64,000 nt of DNA, taken from assembly GCF_016599715.1 (NCBI RefSeq), contig NZ_CP067019.1:372001-436000 (forward strand). Reading direction: 5' to 3'. The stretch is from Acinetobacter sp. CS-2. GTDB lineage: Bacteria; Pseudomonadota; Gammaproteobacteria; Pseudomonadales; Moraxellaceae. The notes beneath the pieces are model-generated. The model saw nothing but the letters and a program-made list of their open reading frames with translations. It searched no databases and was not told where the DNA came from. Below are positions 7,612 through 63,521 of the stretch, one piece after another; within the stretch, counting starts at the first letter, position 1; every line of letters begins with the position of its first letter. Position numbers and translations under genes: made by a program.

Positions 7612-8142
7612 CTATCCAGAATATTTTCTATGCAAAAGTAGCCTTAAAAAGGCTAAATTAATGAACTGAAGGCTCGTATTTAGGTGCTTTTCACAGTTTT
7701 TCCAGAGCCTTCTGCATTTTTCTAACCAAGCAAATGATCTTTCCACAACCCAGCGTTGTGGAATGACTGCAAATTTATGTAATTCACTTCGTTTAGCAAC
7801 TTCAACTCGGGCTCTGATTAAATTCTTAACAGCCAAATAAAAGGGTTCGCCTGTATAACCACCATCAACAAGTACAACCTCTACATTTTGTAAGGTATCT
7901 CTATGTATAGTTATGGCATCTAATGCACCTTGGCGATCCGTTTTATCTGCTGTCGTAACCAATATTCCATGCGGGAGACCTTGAGTATCAACAATAATAT
8001 GTCTTTTAATGCCTGAAACTTTTTTACCAGCGTCATAGCCTTTATCACGTGCAGTATCTGTGTTTTTTACACTTTGTGAATCAATGATGATAAAGCTCGT
8101 TTGTTCTTTCCGTCCATTGCTGATACGGGCCTCGCCAACCAC
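7612..8142 (-). CDS. IS5-family transposase, orfB (catalytic C-terminal part)
   Basis: The 176-aa second frame of the transposase. It carries the DDE catalytic region: the first Asp in IIIDSQSVKNTD, the second in VLVDGGYTGEPF, and the Glu region in RWVVERSFAWLEKCRRLWKNCE. The formal start is a GTG at 8142, inside the end of orfA. The family sequence expected at the join (ALKK... then VGEARISNGRKEQTSF) implies that the working enzyme is a fusion of both frames made by slippage at A7 (8144-8150), or that the copy carries a single-base frameshift. The stop lies 4 bp inside the left end of the IS. Confidence 0.9.
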   Translation of the reverse strand: MVGEARISNGRKEQTSFIIIDSQSVKNTDTARDKGYDAGKKVSGIKRHIIVDTQGLPHGILVTTADKTDRQGALDAITIHRDTLQNVEVVLVDGGYTGEPFYLAVKNLIRARVEVAKRSELHKFAVIPQRWVVERSFAWLEKCRRLWKNCEKHLNTSLQFINLAFLRLLLHRKYSG

Positions 8143-8413
8143 ATTTTTTTAAAGCTTGCTCAAGTATGCTAGGTTCAGTTTCTGATGGTTTTTTATTCCA
8201 AATCGAGAAGTAATAATGCACAGTGCTTTTAGCTGGGAAGTCTCGAGGAAGCATACTCCATTGGCATCCACTTTTTAAAATATAGAGTAAGGCGCAAAAT
8301 ATTTCATAGACATCAACGACTCTTGGACGTGTTTGTTTTCTTCCGCTCAATAGTAACGGTTCAATTTCTTTAAAGGCTTCTCGACTAATGTCGCTGGGAT
8401 ATGGTTTTCTCAT
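8081..8413 (-). CDS. IS5-family transposase, orfA (N-terminal DNA-binding part)
   Basis: The 110-aa first frame. It matches the DUF4096-type N-terminal domain of IS5 transposases: VDVYEIFCALLYILKSGCQW, then LPRDFPAKSTVHYYFSIW. After LEQALKK the frame leaves the family sequence and reads an unrelated tail (CGWRGPYQQWTERTNELYHH), while the family sequence continues in the orfB frame. The switch point coincides with seven A in a row. The start ATG at 8413 is 66 bp inside the right end. Confidence 0.88.
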   Translation of the reverse strand: MRKPYPSDISREAFKEIEPLLLSGRKQTRPRVVDVYEIFCALLYILKSGCQWSMLPRDFPAKSTVHYYFSIWNKKPSETEPSILEQALKKCGWRGPYQQWTERTNELYHH

Positions 8414-58787: not shown

Positions 58788-59100
58788 AGCCCGATTTATC
58801 CTTACATGATAAAACTCGAGTGTTTACCGAGTTATAAGAGCACCATCATAACCAGTTTAATGCGGGAGTTCGGAATCAGAGATTAAATTCACACGTTTTT
58901 GCAACACCGAATAACAATCTGCCTCGATATGTGAAAATGATTTACAAACTAAATTATATACGTTTTTGATTTTTATTCTTTTATAAGAATCGTGCTGCTT
59001 TAAGCCATACACTTGGAAGTTTAGTTTCTCTATCGCTTTGACTGTATAAAAAGAAAGAATCACCAAGTCCCAATAGATTCAGTGATTCTGATGGGGAGAG
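58788..59100. other. Intergenic region between an exported protein gene and a lipoprotein gene
   Basis: 313 bp, AT-rich. It contains the terminator of the lipoprotein gene and probably the promoter of the 115-aa gene. A 69-aa frame on the minus strand (58857-59066) starts with TTG inside the terminator and is not accepted. Confidence 0.6.
59046..59089 (-). terminator. Terminator after the 129-aa lipoprotein gene
   Basis: AGAATCAC and GTGATTCT form an 8-bp stem, with an 18-base loop, followed on the minus strand by TTCTTTTT. It is 12 bp after the stop. Confidence 0.65.
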
Positions 59101-59490
59101 TTAGTTACATTGGGCTAAGGCATCTTTATGGAAATGATGGCGCAGGGCAAGGAAGTTTTTTTGTACTTCTGGGCTATGCAGGTCAAAATTATTGGCGGTG
59201 CTTGAGCCATCTTGGGCAAAGGTGGTTGCACCACCCGAAATTAGGGTATTGCCTTTAAATGACCAGTGTTCTATGGATTTTCCTGCTTTGAGGTTGCCGG
59301 TAAATTCAATCACGCATTTATCAATAAATTTAGTCAGTTTGGCTTTGTTATCCACTGTGTCTGGATAGACTTCCAGATTCTGAACTTCTTGTAATACGCC
59401 GGTTTCAAGTTGTGGGATTTTAGGCGCAGTTGTACACGCCGTAACAGCAATACCCGCAAGACCAGTCAAAATAAGCATTTTAAATTTCAT
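59101..59490 (-). CDS. Small lipoprotein of unknown function
   Basis: A 129-aa lipoprotein with lipobox VTAC (Cys19) after a hydrophobic stretch. The mature part has two Cys (DKCVIEF and the last AQCN) that could form a disulfide. No known domain was recognised. Single gene. Confidence 0.8.
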   Translation of the reverse strand: MKFKMLILTGLAGIAVTACTTAPKIPQLETGVLQEVQNLEVYPDTVDNKAKLTKFIDKCVIEFTGNLKAGKSIEHWSFKGNTLISGGATTFAQDGSSTANNFDLHSPEVQKNFLALRHHFHKDALAQCN

Positions 59491-59557
59491 ATGATTCTTT
59501 CTTGTTGAGTGTTGTTAGTTTGAGTATAGGGAATCGGATGAAAATTGGCTATAAAAA

Positions 59558-60394
59558 CTAGTTTTCAATTACTTCGAATATAGCTTCATCATAATTTATT
59601 TGGATTAACATTTTTTCACCTTTTGAGGTCGGCTCAATCTTAAGTAAAAACAATCCACTATTCAGTAATAAGTCATTAAGATTTTTGAAGCCATACTCTG
59701 TTTTGATTTTCTTATTAGCATTAGGAAATTTTTTGTTAATTGATACGCCTACTGTTGTAAGTGAAATCCAACCGTCATTTTTTTTATTGTTAATGATTAA
59801 TTTTTCAATCTCTTTGTAAATCTCATCTGAAGGAAAGATGAAACGTGCTTTGAACAAATCAGATTTTAAAAAATCAATTTGAGTCTCTAAGCTTTTTTGA
59901 GCATTCAAACAATATTGCTCAAATTGATCTAAAAAAGGTTTATGTTTTTTCTCCAGATTTAATAGAAAATCGACAGCTTCTTTAGATTCATCGAGATTAG
60001 ATAAATTATATTTTTCTTGAAAGTGATGTGCTATAAAATTTCGATCAGTAACAAATTCTTGAAATTGACTGTTTAGTCTTTGATGGTTATGTTCGCATAA
60101 ATTAAAAGATATTTTCATATCTAGACGAAGAGTATTGTTAGGTTCAGTAATGATTGTATCTTCTTCTAGGGGATTCACGAGAAATAATGAATTTAAGGCT
60201 TTTGTACTTAAGCCACCTAAAGTTTGATTTTGAACAGATGGTTCTATAACCAGAGGTGAATTATTGGGCTTAGAAATAATAGTTTTATTTATCTTCATGA
60301 GGGTTTTTAGCCTCATTTCTATTGTTTGAAAACGAATAAGATGTTTTCCAAGTAAGGAATAAATTCTCTCTCTAATTTCTTCAATATTTTGCAT
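59558..60394 (-). CDS. HEPN-like / OST-HTH (LOTUS) domain protein
   Basis: A 278-aa, AT-rich gene. The N-terminal half is helical and has RNFIAHHF at 118-125, that is R118-N-x3-H123, the RNxxxH motif of HEPN RNases. The C-terminal part (about 195-270), with DGWISLTTVGVSINKKFP and YGFKNLNDLLLNSGLFLLK, matches the OST-HTH/LOTUS RNA-binding fold. Both calls are by pattern. It starts 68 bp after glyS on the same strand, just behind the glyS terminator, and has no Shine-Dalgarno site. Codon use is more AT-rich than its neighbours, which suggests transfer. An RNA-directed role, perhaps defence, is inference. Confidence 0.75.
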   Translation of the reverse strand: MQNIEEIRERIYSLLGKHLIRFQTIEMRLKTLMKINKTIISKPNNSPLVIEPSVQNQTLGGLSTKALNSLFLVNPLEEDTIITEPNNTLRLDMKISFNLCEHNHQRLNSQFQEFVTDRNFIAHHFQEKYNLSNLDESKEAVDFLLNLEKKHKPFLDQFEQYCLNAQKSLETQIDFLKSDLFKARFIFPSDEIYKEIEKLIINNKKNDGWISLTTVGVSINKKFPNANKKIKTEYGFKNLNDLLLNSGLFLLKIEPTSKGEKMLIQINYDEAIFEVIEN

Positions 60395-60402
60395 TCTAAA
60401 AA

Positions 60403-60445
60403 ATCATAAAAAACCCCACTCATTTATAGCGGGGTTTTTTATGAT
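60403..60445. terminator. Long perfect terminator hairpin after glyS
   Basis: ATCATAAAAAACCCC and GGGGTTTTTTATGAT form a 15-bp perfect stem with a 13-base loop, 17 bp after the glyS stop. It can end transcripts on both strands. Confidence 0.9.
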
Positions 60446-60451
60446 TTACAA
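60423..60451 (-). promoter_or_regulatory. Likely promoter of the HEPN/OST-HTH gene, inside the glyS terminator
   Basis: Minus-strand TTGTAA (60451-60446), a 17-bp spacer and TATAAA (60428-60423). The spacer is the left arm of the glyS terminator, and the -10 lies in its loop. Predicted start about 60416, some 22 bases before the ATG. Confidence 0.55.
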
Positions 60452-60462
60452 CCAATTATAGC

Positions 60463-62532
60463 TTAGTGCTGAAGCACCGAAATATCCGCAACCGCAGTAA
60501 ATAAACCACGAAGCTGAGCGAGCATACGTAAACGGTTAGCTTTCAGGTCAGCATCATCAGCCATCACCATTACGCCATCAAAAAATGCATCCACTGGTGC
60601 ACGAAGCGCAGCTAAAGCTGACAATGCAGCAGTGTAGTCCTTGGCAGCAAATAACGGCTCAACCACAGGCGTGATTTTCGCAAGTTCAGCGAATAATGCT
60701 TTCTCAGCATCTTCAACCAGATTCGCTTCAACCACAGCACCCTCAGGTGTTGCTTCTTTAGCCAAAATGTTGGCAACACGCTTGTTGGCAGCAGCAAGCG
60801 CAGCCGCTTCAGGCAATGCACGGAAGTGATTTACCGCAGTTACGCGTTTGTCAAAATCAAGTGGAGATTTTGGCGACAATGCTTGAACAGCTTGAATCAC
60901 ATCAACAGCCACGCCCTGGTCTTCGTATTTCGCACGGTAACGACCTTCCAGGAATGCAACAGCATCTGCCAAAGTCTTGTCATGGTCTTTCAATACATCG
61001 CCATATGAAGCTAAAGCAAGTTTGATTAGGTCTTCAATCGACACATCCAGCTCATTTTCAGTCACAAGACGTAAGATACCAATTGCAGAACGACGCAGTG
61101 CAAACGGGTCTTTAGAACCTGTAGGCGCTTGACCAATACCGAAAATACCGGTCAAGGTATCCAAACGGTCGGCAAGGGCAATGGTTGTACCAGTCTTGGT
61201 TTTCGGTAACACGTCACCTGCGAATTTAGGCAAGTATTGCTCACCCAAAGATTCAGCAACTTCAGCATTTTCACCTTCAAGACGTGCGTAGTAAGTACCC
61301 GCAATCCCTTGAAGTTCCGGGAATTCCCCAACAAGCTCAGAAGTTAAGTCACATTTCGCAAGCAGGGCGGCTTTTTCAGCGTCAGCAGGGTTCGCACCTG
61401 TGATCGGCGCTAACGCTACAGCCAATTTTGCAATACGAGTCGATTTATCCCAAAGTGTACCCAATTCAGCTTGGAACACCATGTTGGCCAGTTTTTCTTT
61501 ACGCGATGCCAGCGGTTGCTTTTGATCTTGCAGGAAGAAGAACTCAGCATCTGACAAACGTGGACGAACCACTTTCTCGTTACCTTCAATAATTTGTGTC
61601 GGATCTTTCGACTCAATGTTTGACACAGTAATGAAGTAAGGTTGCAGTTTGTTGTCAGCATTTACCAAACAGAAGTACTTCTGGTTGTCCTGCATCGTCG
61701 TGATTAATGCTTCTTGCGGAACAGCAAGGAAACGTTCTTCGAAGCTTGCACGTAACGCAACAGGCCATTCAACCAATGCAGTCACTTCATCACGAAGGTC
61801 AGCTGGAACAATGGCAATAGCATTCACTTCATCAGCCAATGCTTTGACTTGCTGATCAATGATGGCTTGGCGTTCTTCAAACGACGCTACAACGTGCGCT
61901 GCTTTTAATTTAGGTAGATATTCATCTGCATTGGCTAAGCTAATGGCTTCAGGCGCATGGAAACGGTGACCATAAGTCACGTTGCCTGCTTTGTGATCCT
62001 GAATAGTTGCATCAATCACGTCGTTGTCTTTAAGTAACACTACCCATTTAACTGGACGTACGAATTCGGTACGGCTAGCCGCAGAACGCATGCGTTTAGC
62101 AATTGGTAGGTTGTCTAAAGCAGTTTGTAAAATTTGTGGCAGTAAAACGTCAAGGCTTTGACCTTTCACGTCTTTTAAATAGCACACTTTTTCAACTTTA
62201 CCGGCCTGGAAAGTCGATACTTGATCAACCGTAATGCCTTGACCACGCATAAAGCCTTCAAGTGCTTTGGTTGGTTTGCCTTCAGCATCAAACGCTGCTT
62301 GTTTAGCAGGGCCGTCAAAACGTTTTTGTGTATCTGCTTGTGCGCCTTCTACATTGACAATTTTCAATGCCAGGCGGCGTGGTGCTGCATAAGCTTCAAT
62401 TGAGTCGAAAGCCAGACCAGCATCTTTTAAGCCTTTTTCGGTTTCGGCCTGAAGGGCATCACGTAATTTTTTTAAGCTTTTTGGTGGGAGTTCTTCACAG
62501 CCAAGTTCAAATAAAACAGTATGTTTAGACAT
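60463..62532 (-). CDS. glyS: Glycyl-tRNA synthetase beta subunit
   Basis: A 689-aa beta subunit: N-terminal [17 protein letters not shown], the HD-like and B3-like domains, and a C-terminal anticodon-binding helical domain ending [28 protein letters not shown] (in parts). With GlyQ it forms the alpha2beta2 enzyme that charges tRNA-Gly. Its ATG overlaps the glyQ stop by one base (TAATG), so the two are coupled. Confidence 0.98.
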
Positions 62533-63521
62533 TATTTGTTCTCCGCTGCTTTTTCTGCTTGAGCTGCTTCTGCTTCAACTTGTGCTTTTAACTGCGCCAA
62601 TACTTCGTCACGTAAATGTGGTTCTGCCATTGGGAAACCCAGTTTCGCACGTGCTGCCACGTAACTTTGCGCAATGGCACGCGCCAATGTACGGACACGT
62701 AAAATATAACGCTGACGTTCAGTCACCGAAATCGCACCGCGAGCATCCAGCAGATTAAAGCTGTGTGATGCTTTAATCACCTGTTCATATGCAGGCAATG
62801 GCAGTTCAGCTTCCATTAAGCGCGTTGCTTCAGCTTCGTAGAAGTCGAACAGCTCGAACATTTTGTCGACTGGTGCATATTCAAAGTTGTAAGTGGATTG
62901 TTCCACTTCATTTTGATGGAATACATCACCGTAAGTTACCGTACCGAACTGGCCTTTGGTCCAGACCAGATCGTAAACCGAGTCTACACCTTGCAGGTAC
63001 ATCGCCAGACGTTCCAGACCGTAAGTGATTTCGCCTGTCACCGGGTAACATTCAACACCACCGACTTGCTGGAAGTAAGTGAACTGGGTCACTTCCATAC
63101 CGTTCAGCCAAACTTCCCAGCCCAAGCCCCAAGCACCGAGAGTTGGTGATTCCCAGTTATCTTCCACAAAACGGATGTCGTGGGTCAGGGTATCAATACC
63201 AATGGCTTTTAACGAATCGAGATAAAGCTGCTGGATATTGTCCGGGTTGGGCTTAAGCACCACCTGGAACTGATAATAATGTTGTAAACGGTTCGGGTTT
63301 TCACCATAACGGCCATCTTTCGGACGGCGTGAAGGTTGTACGTAAGCCGCGTTCCATGTTTCTGGTCCTAACGCACGAAGGAAAGTTGCAGTGTGGAATG
63401 TCCCTGCACCCATTTCCATATCGTAAGGTTGTAACACTACACAACCTTGTTCAGCCCAGTAGTTTTGTAAGGCAAGAATTAAGCCTTGAAATGTATCAAT
63501 ATGCGATATGGCGCGACTCAT
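62532..63521 (-). CDS. glyQ: Glycyl-tRNA synthetase alpha subunit
   Basis: A 329-aa catalytic alpha subunit of class II synthetase, with [34 protein letters not shown] (in parts), [28 protein letters not shown] and [12 protein letters not shown]. The C-terminal 25 residues are an Ala/Glu/Gln-rich extension. First gene of glyQS. Confidence 0.98.

Follow-up and report, generated by a model that had tools for sequence, protein, structure and literature searches.

A HEPN-LOTUS protein encoded behind glyS in Acinetobacter, a candidate anti-phage RNase in an exchanged single-gene cassette

Tha, from Staphylococcus aureus prophages, is tail-activated and consists of a stand-alone, 301-aa HEPN protein carrying RNxxxH; it is described as a phage-triggered, non-specific RNase of Abi-like character whose H270A mutant loses protection (PMC11087260). 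AbiF/AbiD, a second single-protein HEPN toxin of abortive infection, has an associated non-coding RNA antitoxin (PMC12373285), and other HEPN toxins belong to MNT-HEPN (MntA-HepT) pairs (PDB 6m6u, 7ae6, 1wwp). As for OST-HTH (LOTUS) domains, almost all bacterial proteins with one are reported (PMC2848206) to be fusions to a DUF88/LK nuclease, an architecture found in bacteria and eukaryotes (Limkain b1). Here, we analyse a 278-aa protein in which a predicted HEPN domain is followed by a LOTUS domain (the HEPN-LOTUS protein), encoded in a 64,000-nucleotide stretch of the Acinetobacter sp. CS-2 chromosome (contig NZ_CP067019.1, positions 372,001 to 436,000), which we call the window and whose numbering is used throughout. 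We put at about 70% the probability that its gene alone makes up an anti-phage cassette passed on horizontally, and that the encoded protein is a HEPN RNase of the abortive-infection type with LOTUS as its RNA-binding module.

Compared by description, the HEPN-LOTUS protein is like Tha in being a stand-alone HEPN protein with RNxxxH, like AbiF/AbiD in being a candidate single-protein HEPN toxin, and like the LK-nuclease proteins in placing an OST-HTH domain after a nuclease domain. Unlike the MNT-HEPN pairs, it has no nucleotidyltransferase gene in its interval, its neighbours being a gene that we take to be glyS and a lipoprotein gene, and it carries a fused LOTUS domain and a long insert before the third long helix. 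In Tha the HEPN domain is C-terminal and the N-terminal half has no discernible domain, whereas here HEPN is N-terminal with LOTUS behind it. The contrast with the LK-nuclease proteins is in the nuclease, which is HEPN and not PIN/NYN-like LK; a Pfam scan up to E 10 finds OST-HTH alone and no DUF88. Lastly, no non-coding RNA antitoxin like that of AbiF was detected: the region 59000-61000 contains no Rfam match reaching the gathering score, the abiF RNA being possibly outside the Rfam models scanned.

Judged by its sequence, the N-terminal half carries the HEPN signature. An initial annotation, made from the DNA letters, had read an RNxxxH motif at residues 118-123 and let its interpretation depend on the conservation of R118 and H123; the motif is there, as RNFIAH, in an open reading frame (ORF) with exactly the limits and length it gave (59558-60394), and both residues are invariant in the family alignments. 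Together with E26, K30 and N119 they are constant across 15 aligned sequences with identity down to 21%, an alignment in which invariant positions total only 12, and R118-N119-x3-H123 and E26/K30 are also invariant in an alignment of 19 sequences. RNxxxH is found in 25 of 31 proteins from the database search (the remaining six are 102-152 aa long) and in all three relatives from other genera, with Q..E...K absent from two of the 25 (P0005 and P0020, both shorter than the query). These residues agree with the features of the superfamily, namely Rx4-6H with a polar residue after R and a second conserved acidic residue in Ex3[KR], a motif described for many HEPN families (PMC3710099). E26 does, however, lie in the first modelled helix (residues 4-35), as against helix 2 for the acidic residue in the four-helix up-down fold of the superfamily.

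The structural evidence is divided between methods. An AlphaFold2 model of residues 1-183 alone has a predicted local distance difference test (pLDDT) score of 90.4, and the best VIA-align matches of this half are the HEPN toxins 7ae6 and 6m6u, from MNT-HEPN type pairs. The HEPN fold proposed in the initial annotation is thus the best match under VIA-align but not under Foldseek, which gave no significant match against the PDB for either the whole model or the N-terminal half, so that the HEPN matches come from VIA-align only. The third long helix covers residues 101-123, with a break at 124, when the whole protein is modelled, and 101-128 in the model of the N-terminal half. A sequence search against solved structures for HEPN gave one chance-level match (E 0.12), and a viral structure library gave no significant match.

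LOTUS domains bind G-rich RNA. The C-terminus of the protein had been called OST-HTH-like, which is borne out by a match of residues 194-260 to PF12872 (E 8.6e-7, 29.2 bits against a gathering cutoff of 23.8). VIA-align matches this part to the LOTUS structures 2kpm, TDRD5, TDRD7 and MARF1, in a winged helix-turn-helix fold. The Ghxph motif given for OST-HTH in PMC2848206, where the domain is predicted to contact double-stranded RNA or RNA stems, is present as G235-F-K-N-L239, with F236, K237 and N238 invariant in 19 sequences. Among related proteins, PF12872 is above cutoff in P0023, P0025 and L108 and below it in L110, and L109 has no match.

HEPN goes unmentioned in the accessible sections of PMC2848206, OST-HTH goes unmentioned in the main text of PMC3710099, and in what is accessible of PMC8195603 the domain occurs in a different system. 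No description of a HEPN-LOTUS protein was found in the literature searched, which consisted mostly of titles (12 of the 67 matching papers for one search) and lacked most subscription papers, and no NCBIfam or PADLOC model matches the 278-aa protein. If the reading is true, the protein would represent a new combination of domains for a HEPN defence RNase, the newness being claimed for the protein.

The gene is AT-rich against its neighbours, as initially annotated: its GC content is 0.283 against 0.437 for the window, the lowest among 49 non-overlapping window ORFs of at least 110 aa, and its GC content at third codon positions is 0.222 against 0.358 for glyS. It begins 68 nt behind the glyS stop codon and 6 nt after the end of a hairpin, and besides it the interval 59491-60462 holds no ORF longer than 44 aa, in line with the earlier statement that no partner is visible. 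Comparison of coding sequences indicates that the gene is under purifying selection. The ratio of non-synonymous to synonymous substitution rates (dN/dS, Nei-Gojobori) is 0.106-0.145 when the window's copy is compared with carriers that are 71-84% identical to it in protein (five comparisons), which argues for a working protein; for a divergent copy in genome G160 it is 0.24-0.50 in its six comparisons, with dS 1.3-2.7. This copy (L016:9681-11332, 37% identity) runs at its 3' end into insertion-sequence (IS)-like ORFs.

That the gene was acquired, as the initial annotation supposed from its composition and position, is borne out by a comparison of cassettes between genomes. A match is found in only 7 of 175 Acinetobacter genomes, and in all seven the gene lies directly behind glyS, between it and the lipoprotein gene. 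In genomes G055 and G084 a 912-bp cassette is 97.5% identical, as against 89.8% for glyS, 77.3% for the lipoprotein gene with its upstream 55 bp and 70.9% for the next 1.5 kb, and dS is 0.04 for the HEPN-LOTUS gene as against 0.51 for glyS. Because the cassette is far more alike than its flanks in this pair, we conclude that it has moved between species. Conversely, G055 and G052 carry unrelated cassettes despite 98.3% glyS identity. Outside the genus, two of three relatives adjoin tyrosine-recombinase-like ORFs (identified by eye). A plasmid or phage origin was rejected, tblastn giving no match in 72,556 plasmid and 50,697 phage records.

What else is carried at this site? We surveyed 67 genomes, namely the seven carriers and the 60 non-carriers that ranked top in the list of glyS matches; G164 and G154, whose flanks lie on separate contigs, and G108, whose flanks are 39.6 kb apart, were excluded. 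Every ORF in the interval with 110 aa or more was counted as cargo, and cargo was grouped into families by single-linkage BLAST. Cargo is present in 65 of the 67 intervals and absent from two, for a total of 104 ORFs in 53 families, with a median GC content of 0.312 and 80 of the 104 below 0.36. PADLOC identifies Gabija in G107 (GajA 1.5e-207, GajB 3.6e-114), retron I-A in G168 (reverse transcriptase 1.6e-133, ATPase 1.0e-151, PtuB 4.8e-67), a Pycsar cyclase in G048 (8.7e-92), OLD in G161 (2.4e-192), a DRT-UG17 reverse transcriptase (2.8e-139) with SLATT (2.7e-43) in G139, and the candidate systems PDC-M63, PDC-M18, PDC-S11 and PDC-S29 (these four genomes being G063, G126, G120 and G002). Further cargo is lipoprotein-like, membrane or transposase-like, and in 20 more distant genomes the same place is also variable, though some hold ordinary-looking genes there. 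The site therefore has the properties of a defence hotspot, with fixed core flanks and exchanged cargo that includes known defence systems, and resembles core-gene hotspots in gathering such systems at a fixed chromosomal position. A survey of Acinetobacter defence hotspots was reportedly made by Yi et al. in 2025; our literature search pairing glyS with hotspot and defence terms found no paper.

The enrichment of defence genes over control genes can only be bounded. We compared 46 of the 53 cargo representatives (seven transposase-like ones being dropped by eye) with 46 window ORFs, and 29 of the 46 cargo proteins were scanned singly, the first ten of them picked for defence-like Pfam results, which leaves the lower bound unaffected. 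PADLOC matches with E <1e-40 were found for at least 13 of the 46 cargo proteins against at most 4 of the 46 controls (worst-case Fisher p 0.03, or 0.06 with the seven dropped families counted as misses), a fourteenth match, the G168 ATPase (L081:1517-3085), lying outside the 46. Pooled, cargo matched 333 PADLOC families and controls 54, the families overlapping heavily, and 11 of 30 singly scanned cargo proteins had no match at E 1e-4. Our confidence in the defence reading is based on the complete known systems at the site and the evidence of transfer, not on this test.

In light of these results, how might the HEPN-LOTUS protein act? We propose that the HEPN domain would be an endoribonuclease that needs no metal and probably works as a dimer, its active site being formed by E26, K30, R118, N119 and H123, and that the minimal C-terminal LOTUS domain would bind structured or G-rich RNA, either sensing phage infection or bringing substrate to the nuclease. 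Once triggered, the enzyme would cut RNA, stopping phage production and leaving the infected cell arrested or dead, as in abortive infection. A promoter that overlaps the hairpin next to glyS would drive transcription of the gene. The observation made in the initial annotation is confirmed, and its interpretation is supported.

An RNase of this kind might instead serve addiction, as a HEPN toxin checked by its own LOTUS domain, by an RNA or by an unlinked factor, and stabilise itself without stopping phage. The closest structural matches of the N-terminal half are indeed toxins of MNT-HEPN type pairs, and a non-coding RNA restrains the HEPN protein AbiF (PMC12373285). We nevertheless find this option rather unlikely, given that the interval has neither a nucleotidyltransferase nor any other ORF above 44 aa, that no Rfam match exceeds the gathering score in 59000-61000, that only 6 nt separate hairpin and start codon, and that unrelated cargo replaces the cassette among close relatives, which argues against strong addiction. 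It is also unlikely that the protein is a nuclease that processes host RNA or has a regulatory role, acquired by some species and having nothing to do with phage: LOTUS is a predicted RNA-binding module, and bacterial LOTUS proteins with a different nuclease have been suggested to be stand-alone RNA-degrading enzymes (PMC2848206), but the gene is confined to seven of the 175 genomes, always at a site shared with defence cargo, and two of its three relatives outside the genus lie beside the recombinase-like ORFs noted above. Finally, certain HEPN domains that lack the motif probably bind RNA and leave it uncut (PMC3710099), but a non-catalytic adaptor, with a HEPN half that is inactive and serves only to bind RNA or protein, is highly improbable here, the motif residues being among the 12 invariant positions.

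Returning to the anti-phage cassette, its expression may depend on the hairpin (RNA fold -30.3 kcal/mol, z -7.0), which we take as a putative glyS terminator. We distinguished two forms, type A with a CTAT[AT][AT] loop and type B with CCCGCTT[TG]. Type A is found in 25 of 67 genomes. The first cargo ORF shares the strand of glyS in 25 of 25, and in 21 of them an in-frame start codon lies 56-74 nt past the glyS stop. Type B is found in 26 genomes, of which 15 have cargo on the strand opposite to glyS, 10 have it on the glyS strand but never at 56-74 nt, and one has none; of the 16 genomes with neither type, three have the near start. The near start thus accompanies type A in 21 of 25 genomes and type B in 0 of 26 (Fisher p 1e-10, relatedness ignored). 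Type A leaders have in common TTG[AT]A[AG], 17 nt and TATAA[AG], but since the TAT letters belong to the definition of type A through its CTAT loop, only the -35-like part is independent evidence. A leader dispersed as a mobile element was tried and rejected: of 60 genomes, seven contain the exact motif CCCGCTATAAATNAGNGGG, each a single time and always some 31-33 bp past the point where the glyS match ends, and the reversed control gives none.

For G055 and G084, near-complete identity starts at the hairpin and stops just inside the lipoprotein gene, and on the basis of this one pair the hairpin may be an anchor for cassette exchange. Several observations weigh against these roles. In G055 and G056 the common stretch extends far into both flanks. 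The initial annotation had placed the gene behind an operon terminator, and a strong hairpin with a T run does lie 6 nt upstream, but a generic scan lists on that strand neither the promoter nor this hairpin as a terminator. Hence the label of terminator rests on form and position, and the sole basis for the promoter is conservation between species, which is partly built in; the scan's promoter-like sites number 3 against a shuffle mean of 6.6, i.e. fewer. In a second survey by eye of 20 distant genomes, seven have the CTAT-loop hairpin, but it is followed immediately by cargo on the same strand in only four of these, so that the 25 of 25 found at first carries less weight.

In integrons, a fixed promoter at the site drives whichever cassette is inserted, and here, likewise, a fixed site promoter would drive the plugged-in cassette. 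Unlike in integrons, the window's interval shows no integrase (no search was made for attC-like sites), and the promoter-like element overlaps the hairpin. Our joint proposal, which is tentative and to which we give somewhat less than even odds, is that immune genes in the form of single cassettes plug in at this site without a recombinase, and that the hairpin there would terminate glyS, carry the -35/-10 promoter of a same-strand cassette and, with the lipoprotein promoter at the other end, offer short homology for swapping. The HEPN-LOTUS protein would be an undescribed defence RNase at that site, with HEPN in place of the usual PIN-like nuclease. The features concerned are collected in Table 1.

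Table 1. Features of the HEPN-LOTUS locus, in window coordinates; glyS and glyQ are presumed gene names.
Feature	Position	Strand	Detail and basis
Lipoprotein gene, right flank	59101..59490	(-)	by eye; match in 153/175 genomes
Conserved region upstream of lipoprotein gene, cassette right edge	59491..59553	(-)	by eye, in most of 65 rows; identity changes nearby
HEPN-LOTUS gene	59558..60394	(-)	278 aa, GC 0.283; ORF list, Pfam, alignments
OST-HTH/LOTUS domain, residues 194-260	59615..59815	(-)	Pfam PF12872 and VIA-align
HEPN domain, residues 1-178	59861..60394	(-)	helices 4-35, 59-69, 101-128, 134-177; AlphaFold2 model and VIA-align
Catalytic-type motif R118-N-F-I-A-H123 (Rx4H)	60026..60043	(-)	R118, N119, H123 invariant
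E26-x3-K30 motif	60305..60319	(-)	E26 and K30 invariant
Hairpin behind glyS, cassette left edge	60401..60447	(-)	20-bp stem, 7-nt loop, T run inside stem arm
-10-like element TATAAA	60423..60428	(-)	mostly in hairpin loop, 17 nt from -35; column counts
-35-like element TTGTAA	60446..60451	(-)	TTG in 23/24 unique type A leaders
glyS, left flank of site	60463..62532	(-)	match in 175/175 genomes
glyQ	62532..63521	(-)	ORF list; same order in 7/7 carriers

Other cargo and neighbouring positions also drew our attention. Three cargo ORFs (L049:277-1245, L056:363-1574 and L122:970-1935) have weak, below-cutoff matches to the RiboL-PSP HEPN model (E 0.0057, 0.0088 and 0.0063, respectively), the last also to the N-terminal domain of ApeA, and may be other HEPN proteins at the same site. 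Five of 289-432 aa (L048:216-1166, L068:277-1575, L077:301-1251, L088:283-1152 and L062:275-1279) have no PADLOC match at E 1e-4 and only DUF4062, in L062, above the Pfam cutoff; they are candidate unknown defence genes. In G108, glyS (C10:224998-227064) and the lipoprotein gene (C10:266640-267023) lie far apart, and the site may there have gained a large island or been rearranged. In G124 the gene immediately upstream of glyQ is AT-rich (L015:5044-6513 (+), 489 aa, GC 0.32) and matches SIR2 weakly, below the cutoff, and there may be a second variable spot on that side of glyQS. Elsewhere in the window, two overlapping IS-like ORFs at 7612-8413 (-), with a lower GC content (0.39), lie amid ordinary genes (judged by eye).

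If true, our reading links bacterial immunity with a domain known chiefly from proteins of the animal germ line, and it points to a compact site at which evolution would already have gathered many candidate defence genes. In turn, the hairpin, which seems to combine terminator and promoter, suggests a hypothesis, open to testing, for the immediate expression of single genes on arrival, with no need for a recombinase or for a promoter further inside the cassette.
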